Below, in pieces: positions 1 to 6,096 of a DNA stretch of 6,223 nucleotides; the first letter of the stretch is position 1, and every line of letters starts with the position of its first letter. This DNA comes from an uncultured delta proteobacterium (GTDB lineage: Bacteria; RBG-13-61-14; DRUE01), in the NCBI GenBank assembly GCA_903930515.1, contig CAIYYW010000362.1, positions 1 to 6,223 on the forward strand, written 5' to 3'. Below the pieces are notes generated by a model. The model ran no database searches, was not told the DNA's origin, and saw only the letters and a program-made list of their open reading frames with translations. The translations under genes were made by a program, and so were the position numbers.

Positions 1-544
1 CCTGCTTGATGAACTCGTTCAGGTCCAGAAGGTTCGCGCTCAAGGGCGCCTGTCGCCGGTTGAAATTTCCTCCCCAGACTTCCTTGCCGGTCTGCGGGTC
101 AAAGATATGGAGATGGAACCCGATTTCCGCGGGACTGCTCGCCGCAAGCCCATTCCCCTTCCGCTCGCTCCAGCAGTAAATCACCGGGAAGATCAGGAAA
201 TCCCCCTTCATCGCTTTAGCCAGCGGGAGCCAGGCCTCAACAGTTTTTCGTTCCTGAATCTTTTCCAAAGGTAGCCGCGCCTTGAGCATGGCAAAGCCGT
301 CCTCGGCCAAAACCGCGGCCAGGCGCGAATCAAATTCGTCCCCCGCGGTTTCCTTAAGCTCGCAATTGAACACCGGCCTGAGACAGATCGGGCAAACCCC
401 GCTCCGGGAAACCAAGGGGTCGGCGGAAACGAATTTATAATTCAGGACCGGCGCCTGTTTCAAGGCCGGTTCCGGCTTGGGACAACTGAAAAAGATCAGC
501 CCGGCAACAAGGGCGCCCAGCCCGGGCAGTAATTTATTTTTCAT
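1..544 (-). CDS. putative outer-membrane or periplasmic lipoprotein, 3' end outside the window
   Basis: I read 181 codons from an ATG at 544 with no stop before the left edge, so the C-terminus is missing. Residues 1-21 (MKNKLLPGLG, then a hydrophobic run ending in LIFFSC) look like a lipoprotein signal peptide with Cys21 as the lipidated residue. Phe at -3 is not a textbook lipobox, so lipidation is probable rather than certain. After a Pro-rich stretch there is a cysteine cluster at Cys51-Cys54-Cys61 (CPIC, then FNC), which could bind metal or form a disulfide. Residues 113-160 (GDFLIFPVIYCW, IGFHLHIFDPQTGKEVWGG) resemble small lipoproteins of unknown function that report a quantity 'in the form of' a beta-strand-rich fold; I recognise the style but no named family. 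Its ATG overlaps the hisH stop as ATGA, implying translational coupling and membership of the minus-strand operon. No function is assigned. Confidence 0.72.
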   Translation of the reverse strand, partial: MKNKLLPGLGALVAGLIFFSCPKPEPALKQAPVLNYKFVSADPLVSRSGVCPICLRPVFNCELKETAGDEFDSRLAAVLAEDGFAMLKARLPLEKIQERKTVEAWLPLAKAMKGDFLIFPVIYCWSERKGNGLAASSPAEIGFHLHIFDPQTGKEVWGGNFNRRQAPLSANLLDLNEFIKQ

Positions 545-1185
545 CTCCCGGCCACCATCCTTCCGAAATTTTTGAGCAGGGCCAACCCGTTGGCCTGGCT
601 TTTTTCCGGGTGGAACTGGCTGGCGAAGAGGTTTCCGGACGCGATCCCGGAGGCGAAGGCGGTTCCGTAATCGGTCTCGGTCGCGACCAGGTTTTTATCC
701 AGCGGCTCCACAAAATATGAATGCACGAAATAAAAGCTGGCCCCGGAAGGGATGCCTTGCAGGACCGGATGGTCCTTTAAGATCTTGACCTGGTTCCAGC
801 CCATATGCGGCACTTTGAGAAAAGCGCCCGGACCGGTTTGCGGGTCGGGCAGGTTCTCGGGGAATTTTTTCACCCGGCCCTTAAAAATTCCCAGGCCTTT
901 GCTCGGGCCGAACTCCTCGCTCTCTTCAAACAAAATCTGGTACCCGAGGCAGATGCCCAGGAAGGGACGGTCGGCCTTGATCCACTCGGTTATCGGCTCA
1001 ATCAGCCCGAGGCCATTAAGGTTCTTGACGCAGTCCGCGAACGCGCCCACCCCGGGCAGGACCATCCCCTCGGCCTTCTCAATCTCGGCCCGGGAGCTGG
1101 ACACTTGTGCCGGGAAGCCGAGCTTGTGAAAGGCCTTTTCCACCGAGCGCAGGTTTCCCATTCCGTAATCAATAATTACAATCAT
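541..1185 (-). CDS. hisH: imidazole glycerol phosphate synthase, glutaminase subunit HisH
   Basis: HisH hydrolyses glutamine and channels ammonia to HisF, which forms imidazole glycerol phosphate and AICAR in histidine biosynthesis in the cytoplasm. The 214-residue protein is a class I glutamine amidotransferase of normal length. It has the family N-terminus (MIVIIDYGMGNLRSV), the oxyanion-strand motif PGVGAF at 44-49, the nucleophile Cys79 in GICLGYQ, PHMGWN at 126-131, and the His192/Glu194 pair in QFHPEKS. I start at 1185 because the family begins at this Met. An in-frame ATG at 1206 would add seven atypical residues and sits directly against the AGGAGG with no spacing; the chosen start has a modest GGTGAG four bases upstream. 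The gene lies 86 bases after the endonuclease stop and overlaps the lipoprotein by four bases. The HisF partner is not in the window and would be expected further left or elsewhere. Confidence 0.97.
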   Translation of the reverse strand: MIVIIDYGMGNLRSVEKAFHKLGFPAQVSSSRAEIEKAEGMVLPGVGAFADCVKNLNGLGLIEPITEWIKADRPFLGICLGYQILFEESEEFGPSKGLGIFKGRVKKFPENLPDPQTGPGAFLKVPHMGWNQVKILKDHPVLQGIPSGASFYFVHSYFVEPLDKNLVATETDYGTAFASGIASGNLFASQFHPEKSQANGLALLKNFGRMVAGR

Positions 1186-1260
1186 ATTCTCACCGCAAAG
1201 GCGCATCCTCCTCCGCCAAGGCTACGGAGGACAGGGAGGACACAGCGAAAAAATGGATTG
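1186..1260. repeat. intergenic repeat-like segment with inverted repeat
   Basis: The short gap between the endonuclease and hisH contains a perfect 6-base inverted repeat, CCTCCG at 1210-1215 and CGGAGG at 1225-1230, separated by nine bases. Around it lie repeated 'ggagga' units (1225-1232, 1235-1240) and a 'caccgcaaaggcgc' run at 1191-1204. Phrases of this type (accgcaaaggcgc, cggaggacacag) resemble dispersed intergenic repeats that I recall from many environmental bacterial genomes; that is recollection, and only one copy is visible here. On the minus strand the CGGAGGAGG end lies about 20 bases before hisH, so the hairpin could influence hisH translation. Confidence 0.45.
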
Positions 1261-1271
1261 CTGAATTTTGC

Positions 1272-2123
1272 TTATTCATTTTTGATCTTTTTTAGTTCCT
1301 CTATGGAATATATCGGTTCTCTGGAGTGAATCGCGTAATGACAATTAGGGCATACAGGTATGAGGTCTTTGATTGCGTCAATTTGATAACTCTCACCAAT
1401 CTTGGAAATAGGGACCAAGTGATGAACAATAATATAATCTTTGAAATCCTTTCCATAAAATTCTCGGAAAGAAAAGCCGCAAACTTTGCAATTGGTTCCA
1501 TAGTATTCAATACAGGCCTGGCGAGCCTGAGGATTTCGCTCATAAGCGTTCACGCTGATTCTATGCTTTGCCCCCTCTGGGAATACCCCTGAATCATCTA
1601 ATTCTTCTGGAATAAATTTGGCAGAGCCTTTAGTCCGTTTACTCCATTCTGCTTCCAAATCTTTTGCCACAGGTTCTTGAATTTTTATTCCGCTTACACG
1701 GGTGCTCCAGGAAAATTTCTCAGACATTTTTTTGAGGAAGTCTATAGAAATGATCGGCTCTTTGGATAAAACATCAAATTTTATGTCCACATACAGAGAC
1801 CTTCCATATAATTTAAACAAATGTTCGTCCTCGTATGACTCCCTCTCTACAATGCCGGAGGCGACAATGCCTTTCGGTTCCTCGCCAAGTTTAATTAAAA
1901 AGATTCTATCGCCCTTTGATATGCTGCGGTTCTTGCCACAAGTCCAGCGATGCCGAGAAAATCCTTTTTCATTCACTTCTTGAATATGTTTATCAATATT
2001 ATCATCAATGTCATTCCAAGACCATCGCTTTGGATTCCAGGCTAACAGATATGTCTTCCTTTTTGCGCTTCTTGGCTGAAGAATTAGCCTTTTCCTAAAG
2101 ATACTCCTTTCGCGCTTAGACAT
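1272..2123 (-). CDS. EVE-domain HNH endonuclease, probable modification-dependent restriction enzyme
   Basis: The 283-residue protein has two recognisable parts. Residues about 24-155 look like an EVE/PUA-like fold: TYLLAWNPKRWSW at 24-36 with Trp29, Trp34 and Trp36, then GDRIFLIKLG at 71-80 and GIVASGIV at 85-92. EVE domains are known readers of modified bases. Residues about 190-270 form a zinc-supported HNH nuclease: Cys212-Cys215, the catalytic pair His234-His235 in VHHLVPIS, LIPVCPNCH with Cys258 and Cys261, and His266. This reader-plus-nuclease architecture fits type IV, McrA-like restriction of DNA carrying modified cytosine; the exact modification is not predictable here. The ATG at 2123 has AGGA eight bases upstream and overlaps the nucleotidyltransferase gene by eight bases. 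A 60-base sample (1741-1800) is 33% G+C against 52-67% in neighbouring genes, supporting horizontal acquisition into the operon. All key HNH residues are intact. Domain assignment is firm for HNH and good for EVE; the defence role is inferred. Confidence 0.88.
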   Translation of the reverse strand: MSKRERSIFRKRLILQPRSAKRKTYLLAWNPKRWSWNDIDDNIDKHIQEVNEKGFSRHRWTCGKNRSISKGDRIFLIKLGEEPKGIVASGIVERESYEDEHLFKLYGRSLYVDIKFDVLSKEPIISIDFLKKMSEKFSWSTRVSGIKIQEPVAKDLEAEWSKRTKGSAKFIPEELDDSGVFPEGAKHRISVNAYERNPQARQACIEYYGTNCKVCGFSFREFYGKDFKDYIIVHHLVPISKIGESYQIDAIKDLIPVCPNCHYAIHSREPIYSIEELKKIKNE

Positions 2124-2406
2124 AGACCAGATCCTGCATAATATATTTCCTGCGGTTGGGCTTGATGGCGTCGGGGGTGATCAAGTCAACCTTGACCCCC
2201 AGAAGCTCTTCCAGGTAATCAGCGAAATGGATGAAGAGAAATCCCACCGGCTCCTTGAATTCCACCAGCAGATCCAAATCGCTTTCCTCGGTCTGCTCCC
2301 CCCGGGCATAAGACCCGAAAATGGCAAGGTCTTTCACCTTGTATTTCTCCTCCAGAATCTTGCGGTTTTTTCCAATCGTTTCCTTGATGTCCTTAAGCTC
2401 TTTCAT
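2116..2406 (-). CDS. MNT-type minimal nucleotidyltransferase
   Basis: This 96-residue protein is a stand-alone DNA polymerase beta-like nucleotidyltransferase. The signature GSYARG at 31-36, followed by SDLDLLVEF at 42-50, gives the GSx(A)RG loop and the two metal-binding aspartates Asp43 and Asp45; a third acidic residue is likely Asp74 in VDLIT. Family members transfer nucleotides, and the MntA group AMPylates a HEPN toxin, HepT. I place the start at 2406 because family proteins begin here and TGAGGA lies four bases upstream; the frame is open further upstream but there overlaps hisB in a different frame. The gene follows hisB by 31 bases. Its final codons overlap the start of the EVE-HNH gene by eight bases, so the two are probably translated together. 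No HEPN partner is adjacent, which is unusual for the family. Composition (57% G+C over 2281-2340) is closer to the host than to the endonuclease. The family is clear; the substrate is unknown. Confidence 0.9.
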   Translation of the reverse strand: MKELKDIKETIGKNRKILEEKYKVKDLAIFGSYARGEQTEESDLDLLVEFKEPVGFLFIHFADYLEELLGVKVDLITPDAIKPNRRKYIMQDLVYV

Positions 2407-2437
2407 CTTTTCCTCAAACTTAGCCTTTCCTCTTCGC

Positions 2438-3031
2438 TCAGAGCTTCCCCTTGGAGCTGGGCACACTTGGCTCGCGCGGGTTGATCGCGACGGCCTGGGC
2501 CATTGCCTTGCCCAAGGCCTTGAAGATGGCCTCCAGGGAGTGGTGATAGTCCGTGCCGTATTCCAGCCGGATATGGAGGGAGATCCCGGCGTTATTGGCA
2601 AAGGCCCGGAAGAATTCCTGGACCAGGTTGACATCAAATTCCCATTGCTTTTCCTTGGGAATCTCCACCTGATAAATTAGACAGGGCCTTCCGGAAAGGT
2701 CCACCACCACCCGGGCCAGGGCCTCGTCCATCGGCACCAGGGACAGGCCGAACCGGTTGATGCCCTTCCGCACATCCATCGCCCGGTTGAAGGCCTGTCC
2801 GAGGGTTATCCCCAGGTCTTCCACCAGGTGATGCTCCCCCACTTCCACATCCCCGGCCGCGTTCAACTCCAAGTCAAACAGGCCGTGTCTCGCGAAGCTC
2901 TCCAGCAAATGATTAAAAAATCCCAGCGGGGTTTTGATCTTGCTCCGGCCCTCTCCGTCCAGGTTGAGCTTGAGCAGAATCTCGGTCTCCTTGGTCTTGC
3001 GCTTGATCTCGGCTTTCCTTGATTTTTTCAT
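2438..3031 (-). CDS. hisB: imidazoleglycerol-phosphate dehydratase HisB
   Basis: HisB removes water from imidazole glycerol phosphate to give imidazole acetol phosphate, the step immediately after the HisH/HisF reaction. The 197-residue protein is the monofunctional form, with no phosphatase domain. Visible family blocks are RKTKETEI at 11-18, GFFNHLLESFARHGLFDLEL at 37-56, the metal-binding EHHLVED at 66-72 (His67, His68, Glu71), MDEALARVVVDLSGRP at 101-116 and YHHSLEAIFKAL at 162-173 (His163, His164, Glu167), ending in PSSKGKL. The first motif has Glu where Asp is usual before HH, a conservative change. The ATG at 3031 has GAGGTG seven bases upstream. The gene lies 68 bases after amrB and 31 before the nucleotidyltransferase. 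It is separated from hisH by two non-histidine genes. Confidence 0.97.
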   Translation of the reverse strand: MKKSRKAEIKRKTKETEILLKLNLDGEGRSKIKTPLGFFNHLLESFARHGLFDLELNAAGDVEVGEHHLVEDLGITLGQAFNRAMDVRKGINRFGLSLVPMDEALARVVVDLSGRPCLIYQVEIPKEKQWEFDVNLVQEFFRAFANNAGISLHIRLEYGTDYHHSLEAIFKALGKAMAQAVAINPREPSVPSSKGKL

Positions 3032-3063
3032 CCCGGTTCACCTCACCTTATCATTATCATTCC

Positions 3064-3088
3064 CAGGGCGAGGCCAGCCCCGCCCCTG
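3064..3088. other. GC-rich stem-loop between amrB and hisB
   Basis: GGGCG at 3066-3070 pairs with CGCCC at 3081-3085; after one A-C mismatch, GG at 3072-3073 pairs with CC at 3078-3079, closing a four-base loop. CAG at 3064-3066 and CTG at 3086-3088 can extend the stem if one base bulges. On the minus strand this begins about 12 bases after the amrB stop. No T-run follows in either direction, so it is not a standard intrinsic terminator. It could stabilise or partly punctuate the operon mRNA; that role is inference. Confidence 0.45.
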
Positions 3089-3099
3089 CAAAATTCAAC

Positions 3100-3906
3100 T
3101 CACTTAATTATTACTGCGGCGTATGACACCACTTCCCGGTCGTCCCCGGTGACTTCTCCGGAATTGCGGTAATCCGCCAGCTCCGCGCTCTCCGCTCCCA
3201 ACTCCCTGGCCGCCACCAGCATCACCGTTGCCGGGATGAACCCGCACATTGAAATATTATTCCTCACCACCGCGGCGTAAAGGCCCTCGGGGTTCAGTTG
3301 CAACGCCTGGTCCAGGGCCATCCGGTCCTGGCGCTTGGCCTTCTCCGCGGGAAGGTAGTGGCTCATATCCGAACTGGCCACCATCAGGGCCGGCTGGTCC
3401 CATTCCTTCACCGCCCTTGAGATCGCCTTTCCCAACTCCTCGCATTGCGCATAGCTCATCCGCAACAGGCAGAGCGCGGTGAGCCGGAAATCCTTGCGGA
3501 AATATTGCAGGAACGGGATTTGCACTTCCAGAGAATGCTCGGATTGATGCGCGCCCTCGTCCAGTTCCACCAGGCTGGTCTCGGCCCCGATCATTTCGCC
3601 CAGTTCGGCGTTCACTTCCACTTCCCCCAGGGGCGTGCTCCAACTCCCCTCCGGCCAGAGCGCGATGTCCGCTCCGATCCCGCGATGGTTTGGCCCGAGC
3701 ACGATCACATCCTTTGGAATCTCCACCCGGCTGAACACGATCGCGGCGCCTTTCCCGGAATAAATATACCCGGCATGCGGAGAGATCACCCCCAAGGCCT
3801 TCTCCCGTTTCCTTCCCGGCTCCGCGAATTCCCCGATCATTTCCCGGAGCTCGGCCTTGTCCGCGGGATAAAAAGAGCCCGCAACCGCCGGCCTTCTGAC
3901 GCTCAT
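3100..3906 (-). CDS. amrB: AmmeMemoRadiSam system protein B (MEMO1 family)
   Basis: The 268-residue protein is a full-length member of the Memo family, structurally related to LigB-type non-haem iron dioxygenases. Family landmarks run throughout: VRRPAVAGSFYPAD at 3-16, SPHAGYIYSG at 42-51, GPNHRG at 71-76, EHSLEVQIPFL at 123-133, SSDMSHY at 178-184, MCGFIP at 220-225 and the C-terminal VVSYAAVIIK. By analogy with human MEMO1, His44, His74 and Cys221 are the likely metal ligands, and all are present. In many bacteria this protein is encoded with an AMMECR1-domain protein and a radical SAM protein; neither is adjacent here. The biochemical activity in bacteria is not settled to my knowledge. 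The ATG directly follows the PilZ stop (TAAATG), with AGGAGG lying inside the end of the PilZ gene, so translation is probably coupled. The symbol follows common annotation usage. Confidence 0.95.
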   Translation of the reverse strand: MSVRRPAVAGSFYPADKAELREMIGEFAEPGRKREKALGVISPHAGYIYSGKGAAIVFSRVEIPKDVIVLGPNHRGIGADIALWPEGSWSTPLGEVEVNAELGEMIGAETSLVELDEGAHQSEHSLEVQIPFLQYFRKDFRLTALCLLRMSYAQCEELGKAISRAVKEWDQPALMVASSDMSHYLPAEKAKRQDRMALDQALQLNPEGLYAAVVRNNISMCGFIPATVMLVAARELGAESAELADYRNSGEVTGDDREVVSYAAVIIK

Positions 3907-4659: not shown

Positions 4660-6096
4660 ATGAAGGGAAAAGTTGGAACGATAATTATCGTGGTGATCGC
4701 GTTACTGGGCGGGATTTTGGTCGGCCAGAGGATCGGCAAGCGCGGGACGGTTTTGAAATCCGGGAAGACCCTGGAGGTCAAGCTGACGGAGATCAGCCAG
4801 GAATTGGCGGAGTTGGAAGGGATGGCGAAGCCGGGGAGCAAGGGAGCGCTCCAGGAAGGCAAGCTATATAGCTTTAATTTGGACAAGGTTCCGGTGCTGG
4901 GCGAGGCCAAGGCCAAGGTTAAGATCGTGCTCTGGAGCGATTTCCAATGCCCGTTCTGCGAGCGGATGGAAAAGATGTTGGAGGAGATAGTCCGGGCGAA
5001 TCCGGATAAATACGCGCTGTATTTCAAGAACAAGGTAGTTCACGACACCGCGGCCCTAGAGCATGAGGCGGGCATTTCCGCGACCGCTCAGGGCAAATTC
5101 TGGGAACTGAACAACCTGTTCTTCCAGAACCGGGCGCAGATGCTCCAGGTGGCCGGGGAAGGGCCGGACAAGCTTCAGGCGAAGATTATGGAGTTTGCGG
5201 CGCAGGTCGGGATGGATGTGGACAAGTTGAAGGCGGACCTGGACAGCCATAAGAACCAGGCGCAGTTAAAGGCGGAAGACATTGAAGCCGGGGCGAACCA
5301 GATTATGAGCACCCCCTCGGTTTTTATTAACGGATATTTCTACGGGTATGACCCGGCGGTGCTCAAGACCAAGATTATTGAAGCCTCGGAAAAACCGGCC
5401 GTGGCTCAGGGGGAAGCGAAGCCCAAGACCGTGGGGATTGAGGCGACCCTGACGGAAATTGAAACGAAGATCCAGAATTTGAAAGACAATTTGAAGAGGC
5501 CGCGGGGAGGCGGCGGCGGCGGAGCAGGCGGCGAGGGTCCCAAGGGGCCGGAGCAGGGGAAGGAATACCCCTTTGATCTGGGGAGCGCGCCGGTATTGGG
5601 TCCCAAGGACGCCAAGGTCAAGGTGGTGATTTTCAGCGACTTCCAATGTCCGTATTGCGAGAAGATGGCCGGCTTGATGGAAGAGGTTCAGGGAAATTCT
5701 CCCAACCAGGTCGCGATTTATTTTAAAAATTTCGTAGTCCACGAGAAGGCTATTGTAGAGCACGATGCCGCAATGGCCGCGAATGCCCAGGGCAAGTTCT
5801 GGGAATACCATAACCTGGTATTCAAGAACCGGATGGAACTGACCAAGCTGGGCGGAGAGGGCGACACCCAATTGCGGCAAAAGCTGATTGACCTGGCGAA
5901 AGAGGCCAAGTTGAATGTCAACCAGTTCACCAAAGACTTGGACAGCCATGCCTACCAAAGCGTGATCAAGGATAATATCGCGGAGGGCAGGAAAGCGGGC
6001 GTGAGCGGCACTCCCAGCGTTTTTATCAACGGTTATTTTTACGGTTACAACCCGGCGGATATTAAGGCCAAGATTGAGGAGGAGAGCAAGAAGTGA
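4660..6096 (+). CDS. membrane-anchored protein with two DsbA-like thioredoxin domains
   Basis: The 478-residue protein begins with a short basic N-terminus and one hydrophobic segment (about 6-22), with no clear cleavage site, so it is probably anchored with its bulk outside the cytoplasm. A short charged helix (about 38-54) precedes domain 1 (about 68-240), which has SDFQCPFC with Cys97/Cys100 and the cis-proline loop STPSVFINGYF (Pro219). A linker (about 245-300), including a helix resembling the first (260-276) and a glycine run at 283-288, leads to domain 2 (about 301-472) with CPYC at 330-333 and GTPSVFINGYF (Pro452). The domains align without gaps at a 233-residue offset, and I count about 83 identities in 173 positions, a clear internal duplication. 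Both active sites are intact, so thiol oxidation or disulfide isomerisation is likely (DsbA/Thioredoxin_4 type). AAGGAGG lies nine bases before the ATG. The stop overlaps the next gene by four bases. Substrates and the redox partner are unknown. Confidence 0.93.
   Translation: MKGKVGTIIIVVIALLGGILVGQRIGKRGTVLKSGKTLEVKLTEISQELAELEGMAKPGSKGALQEGKLYSFNLDKVPVLGEAKAKVKIVLWSDFQCPFCERMEKMLEEIVRANPDKYALYFKNKVVHDTAALEHEAGISATAQGKFWELNNLFFQNRAQMLQVAGEGPDKLQAKIMEFAAQVGMDVDKLKADLDSHKNQAQLKAEDIEAGANQIMSTPSVFINGYFYGYDPAVLKTKIIEASEKPAVAQGEAKPKTVGIEATLTEIETKIQNLKDNLKRPRGGGGGGAGGEGPKGPEQGKEYPFDLGSAPVLGPKDAKVKVVIFSDFQCPYCEKMAGLMEEVQGNSPNQVAIYFKNFVVHEKAIVEHDAAMAANAQGKFWEYHNLVFKNRMELTKLGGEGDTQLRQKLIDLAKEAKLNVNQFTKDLDSHAYQSVIKDNIAEGRKAGVSGTPSVFINGYFYGYNPADIKAKIEEESKK

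Follow-up and report, generated by a model that had tools for sequence, protein, structure and literature searches.

The window analysed here, 6223 bases in full, is an entire contig (C362) of a 3.65-Mb source assembly that is 93% complete. On its minus strand, pilZ, memo, hisB, mntA, an EVE-HNH gene, hisH and a lipoprotein-like open reading frame (ORF) follow one another (Table 1). The EVE-HNH gene had been predicted to be embedded between hisB and hisH. It does lie within the his operon, but it does not directly follow hisB, because mntA, a gene overlooked in the original prediction, intervenes. The mntA gene starts 31 bp past hisB, behind a GAGG stretch resembling a ribosome site, and shares 8 nt with the nuclease ORF; alignment with relatives placed the start of hisH at the ATG at 1185 rather than at 1206. 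Consistent with what had been claimed, no integrase was found in the window, and a simple consensus scan of positions 1100-3200 detected no sigma-70-like promoter or terminator-like site on the minus strand. Likewise, neither an Rfam family nor a methyltransferase gene was found in the window, and the nuclease gene is bordered by neither a clean target-site duplication nor an inverted repeat. From this gene arrangement, the nuclease is probably transcribed with the his operon and translated by coupling to mntA, and the proposed co-expression with housekeeping genes is probable.

Table 1. Features of the locus, with positions in the window
Feature	Position	Strand	Evidence or remark
EVE-HNH type IV-like restriction endonuclease gene, 283 aa	1272..2123	-	ORF, Pfam, alignment, fold match
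EVE domain (putative modified-base reader), ~aa 25-165, motif W29-N30-P31	1629..2051	-	Pfam, alignment, fold match
HNH nuclease domain, ~aa 195-283, Pfam core aa 212-268	1275..1541	-	Pfam, EcoKMcrA match, alignment
Additional basic N-terminus, 24 aa; possible hepT remnant in first ~11 aa	2052..2123	-	Weak statistics
mntA-like minimal nucleotidyltransferase gene (type VII antitoxin family), 96 aa	2116..2406	-	GS-X10-DXD intact, hepT partner absent
Overlap of mntA stop and nuclease start, ATGTCTAA	2116..2123	-	Geometry as in mntA/hepT pairs
hisB, operon gene upstream	2438..3031	-	ORF, Pfam
hisH, downstream gene, intact	541..1185	-	Start set at 1185
Dispersed intergenic repeat copy, core CACCGCAAAGGCGC, between nuclease gene and hisH	1191..1250	+	

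Two further observations were made on the surrounding genes. On the strand opposite to the his genes, positions 4660-6096 (+) encode a 478-aa protein with two tandem DsbA-like thioredoxin domains. In a genome of the same order (G002, L004:2205-3470), the memo gene upstream of hisB carries a long internal duplication (421 aa vs ~268 aa), which is either real or an assembly artefact.

The EVE-HNH ORF opens with an ATG. Pfam analysis showed that its product contains an N-terminal EVE domain of the PUA superfamily (PF01878, aa 25-139, 25.5 bits at a Pfam cut-off of 23) and a C-terminal HNH domain (PF01844, 30.6 bits at a cut-off of 21.4). The HNH catalytic motif is intact, and C211, C214, H233, H234, C257, C260, H261 and H265 are conserved in the alignment. 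PADLOC returned a type IV match for the protein. The far lower G+C content reported for the gene was confirmed, as it amounts to 39.6% (GC3 39.1%) compared to 57-58% in its neighbours (hisB, 57.7%, GC3 78.3%; hisH, 57.4%, GC3 74.9%), which places the gene in an AT-rich island; mntA is near native composition (GC3 68%). No other match to the EVE-HNH sequence was found in the source genome. This genome also gave no match to the cytosine methyltransferase family PF00145, of which each of the two nearest relatives has one, all three genomes being incomplete; its absence fits a putative 5mC-dependent nuclease.

An AlphaFold2 model of the protein, built from a 27-row alignment, reached a mean pLDDT of 84.6 and a pTM of 0.56, and owing to this pTM the relative arrangement of its EVE and HNH domains is uncertain. 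Foldseek ranked VcaM4I (PDB 6yex) first among full-length PDB matches (E 2.9e-6, 290 alignment columns), a whole-protein similarity to be read with the unreliable domain arrangement of the model in mind, and EVE structures came next. In a second structural comparison, Z scores of 12.4, 11.3 and 10.5 were obtained for 2ar1, 2eve and THYN1 with 5mC DNA, respectively, and 10.5 for VcaM4I over 210 residues. EVE structures also lead the matches of the EVE domain, 2ar1, 2eve and THYN1 being matched by profile as well as by fold, so that the EVE fold anticipated in the original prediction was recovered. VcaM4I, which was not reached from the EVE-HNH protein by sequence search, flips 5mC or 5hmC into its EVE pocket and cleaves by its HNH domain (PMC7897488). 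The motif W29-N30-P31 ends strand 1, as does W22-S23-P24 of VcaM4I, a correspondence in motif position and not a residue-level alignment with 6yex. With the VcaM4I base pocket (P24, W82 and Y130) as reference, pocket residues could not be mapped singly at an identity of only 12-13%, and thus the modified base could be another. EVE-HNH fusions have already been described as putative type IV enzymes (PMC7641849). Judged from sequence and model, the protein is, as had been proposed, a putative EVE-HNH type IV (modification-dependent) restriction endonuclease of this already known type; what is unusual is the nested position of its gene.

Full-length EVE-HNH relatives were found in Anaerolineales (Chloroflexota; 48%), a deltaproteobacterial MAG (38.6%), a Verrucomicrobia MAG (32%) and two phage contigs (38% and 31%). 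They were retrieved by alignment-based searches; single-sequence searches of bacterial genome contigs and viral contigs returned no EVE-HNH relative, and a search of viral contigs with the EVE-domain alignment gave no match. Plasmid and phage matches mostly comprise the HNH half alone, joined to other N-terminal parts. The closest EVE domains are those of other EVE-HNH and of EVE-McrB proteins (30-33% identity), and the exact branch of the window's domain is not resolved in the EVE tree. Both phage-contig genes are AT-rich compared to their phage (44% in 57.5%; 30% in 37.5%). The bacterial full-length relatives (L178, L179, L184) are lone genes amid housekeeping genes, indicating that a lone setting is usual for this small family; that the context of the window gene is uncommon, as stated in the original prediction, is therefore not supported for this family. 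No MNT gene was present in the 3-5 kb flanks of the full-length relatives, which rules out a conserved mntA/EVE-HNH pair. At what is apparently one Anaerolineales locus, located before an epimerase gene, one sequence (L179:4998-6443) encodes the full EVE-HNH protein plus a further C-terminal domain and two others (L180:4998-5456 and L177:3060-3515) only the EVE part, which suggests that the nuclease half may have been lost or gained there.

As advised with the original prediction, the hisB-hisH spacing was compared among relatives. In a sister species of the same genus (G001), the two genes are split between contigs, with hisB at the end of C375 and hisH at the end of C482; these contig ends overlap by 66 bp, giving a gene-free spacer of 223 bp. 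This spacer is bounded by two copies, in opposite orientation, of a repeat at which the assembly breaks. In the order relative G002, the gap is ~55 bp, and hisH adjoins hisB in many more distant genomes, too. The repeat core CACCGCAAAGGCGC (14 bases) has 13 exact copies in the source genome, compared to none for the reversed control; the repeat family is intergenic in this genome and in the sister species, and the same family occurs in the gap between the nuclease gene and hisH and in the sister spacer. The finding that the sister species has only a gene-free spacer of 223 bp indicates that the insertion is recent. Together with the foreign composition of the gene, its absence at the site in the sister species and the order relative rules out that it is native there.

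The product of mntA carries the GS-X10-DXD motif (GSYARGEQTEESDLD) described for MntA (PMC7641770), as expected of the antitoxin. It matched PF01909 with 72.2 bits and NCBIfam MntA with 44.9 bits, the latter under its cut-off of 60. No gene for a HEPN toxin (HepT, RX4HXY) was found in the window, where HepT queries gave only chance-level matches; no adjacent toxin being present, the locus is an incomplete MntA-HepT pair. For a toxin-antitoxin pair, it is expected that the toxin is lost and the antitoxin kept. Among the 28 nearest mntA relatives in other genomes, hepT, the next and overlapping gene, was judged by eye from translations to be intact in ~21, degenerate in ~5 and unrecognisable in 2. 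The nuclease ORF of the window begins at the hepT start position, with an identical 8-nt overlap. Its product has ~21-24 additional N-terminal residues that are seen in no relative, and the window has AGG where L179 has ATG. The first 11 residues, MSKRERSIFRK, resemble the HepT starts MSKRDSNLFIS and MKRDASLYRKD, with p values, uncorrected for multiple tests, of ~0.016 for residues 4-11 and 0.06 for residues 4-13 (ungapped profile against shuffles). This N-terminus may be a hepT remnant, a reading with which another competes, as the 5' DNA of the nuclease gene is also like the leader before mntA: an imperfect direct repeat (17/23 nt) flanks mntA at 2089-2111, after the mntA stop, and at 2407-2429, after the hisB stop, and was reached in 1 of 2000 shuffles. 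No 3' part of hepT remains at the locus, and no allele with an intact mntA-hepT pair at the hisB-hisH site was found.

A second intact mntA (GC3 72%) is present in the source genome on contig C5 (L219:1110-3913). Behind it, a stop ends a clear 42-residue HepT N-terminus, and an AT-rich gene (GC3 38%) comes next, encoding 790 aa with weak similarity, below the Pfam cut-off, to Mrr-type (Mrr_cat) nucleases; the 3' part of hepT is absent after this gene. In the sister species, on contig C190 (L067:461-772 and the stretch below 461), a hepT behind an intact mntA is broken by an insert of <200 bp, beyond which the HepT reading frame continues. In addition, HNH nuclease genes adjoin MazEF-like pairs in two other genomes (L056:3734-5218, contig C588 of the sister species; L057:3-1393, G005), suggesting that clusters of nucleases of this kind with toxin-antitoxin genes occur repeatedly.

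The most likely explanation, in which we have reasonable confidence, is that a mobile type IV restriction gene was recently acquired and took the place of hepT in an mntA-hepT module within the his operon. The module itself would have entered the hisB-hisH gap before the nuclease gene, which would have arrived recently by horizontal transfer, into the hepT position. The foreign composition of the gene, its relatives on phage contigs and the gene-free site of the sister species count for recent horizontal acquisition; the occupation of the hepT slot with the same overlap and the hepT remnant on contig C5 count for replacement. Loss of the toxin gene would be tolerated because the antitoxin stays intact. 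By analogy with VcaM4I, incoming phage or plasmid DNA is the predicted substrate: the EVE domain would flip out a modified base in it, with 5mC or 5hmC the likeliest candidates, and cleavage close to this base would fall to the HNH domain, which probably works as a dimer.

Alternatively, the nuclease gene may lie beside mntA by chance, in a gap tolerant of accessory genes, with hepT lost earlier or never there. Decay of hepT in the absence of nucleases is common among the mntA relatives (L232, L233, L236, L247), the N-terminus resembles HepT only weakly, and the HNH genes beside mazEF pairs in related genomes show that accessory genes cluster. However, chance does not readily account for a nuclease ORF that opens precisely where hepT would start and has the same overlap, nor for the nuclease-like gene directly on a hepT remnant on contig C5, and we consider this alternative unlikely. 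The two overlapping genes could also be a functional two-gene unit, in which the MntA adenylyltransferase modifies or restrains the nuclease as its target in place of HepT. In line with this, the GS-X10-DXD motif is intact, the second intact mntA of the genome also precedes an AT-rich nuclease-like gene, and restraint could be useful because VcaM4I truncations can be toxic (PMC7897488). Nevertheless, such a unit is improbable, since the flanks of the full-length relatives lack MNT genes, VcaM4I works without such a partner, and the near-native GC3 of mntA compared to the foreign GC3 of the nuclease gene (68% vs 39%) argues against joint arrival.

Still more doubtful is an extended scenario in which AT-rich defence nucleases repeatedly find a safe landing site in hepT genes that directly follow an intact mntA, and in which the orphan MntA has been adopted to restrain the nuclease, forming an antitoxin-restrained type IV unit expressed from the his operon. 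Finally, the protein might serve the host in RNA or DNA modification and not in defence, given that EVE, YTH and ASCH domains are structurally close, several of them bind RNA, and the gene lies within a housekeeping operon. The patchy distribution, foreign composition and phage-contig relatives of the gene, its absence at the site in the sister species and the homology of its HNH domain to restriction enzymes make this highly improbable.

Replacement of hepT by a restriction gene, our preferred reading, would be a tangible example of nesting: a nuclease gene lies where the toxin of a toxin-antitoxin module belongs, and the module in turn lies in a biosynthetic operon. The same genome holds another example that is clearer. 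Cells are harmed when they lose an antitoxin but not when they lose a toxin, and incoming genes should therefore land preferentially in toxin genes, an idea that can be tested. A limited literature search found no report of EVE-HNH with MntA or of hepT as a landing site. The protein also extends the EVE-HNH group to a divergent sequence, whose reader is of a kind found in EVE-McrB systems, too.

Compared with known restriction systems, the window protein shares with VcaM4I an N-terminal EVE domain, a helical linker and a C-terminal HNH domain. Different from VcaM4I, it has the Cys4/His set of an EcoKMcrA-like HNH domain and an extra N-terminus of 24 aa. The HNH domain of EcoKMcrA (PDB 6ghc) is homologous to its C-terminal HNH domain (E 1.1e-6), whereas the N-terminal reader of EcoKMcrA (NEco) is unrelated to its EVE domain. 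EVE-McrB proteins belong to McrBC-type type IV systems and have an EVE reader near that of the window; there, however, the EVE domain is fused to an AAA GTPase-type motor with McrC, while in the window it is fused to HNH and a motor gene is absent. Similar to the MntA-HepT type VII module (PMC7641770), the locus has an mntA with an intact catalytic motif and the same gene-overlap geometry, but hepT is absent and the nuclease gene occupies its position. A precedent exists in Thermus thermophilus HB8, where an MNT-HEPN module is inserted in the lysine operon (PMC2701414). As in the window, a mobile MNT gene thus lies within an amino-acid biosynthesis operon and is missing from a close relative; different from the pair reported as complete in strain HB8, the toxin is absent from the window and a restriction gene comes next.
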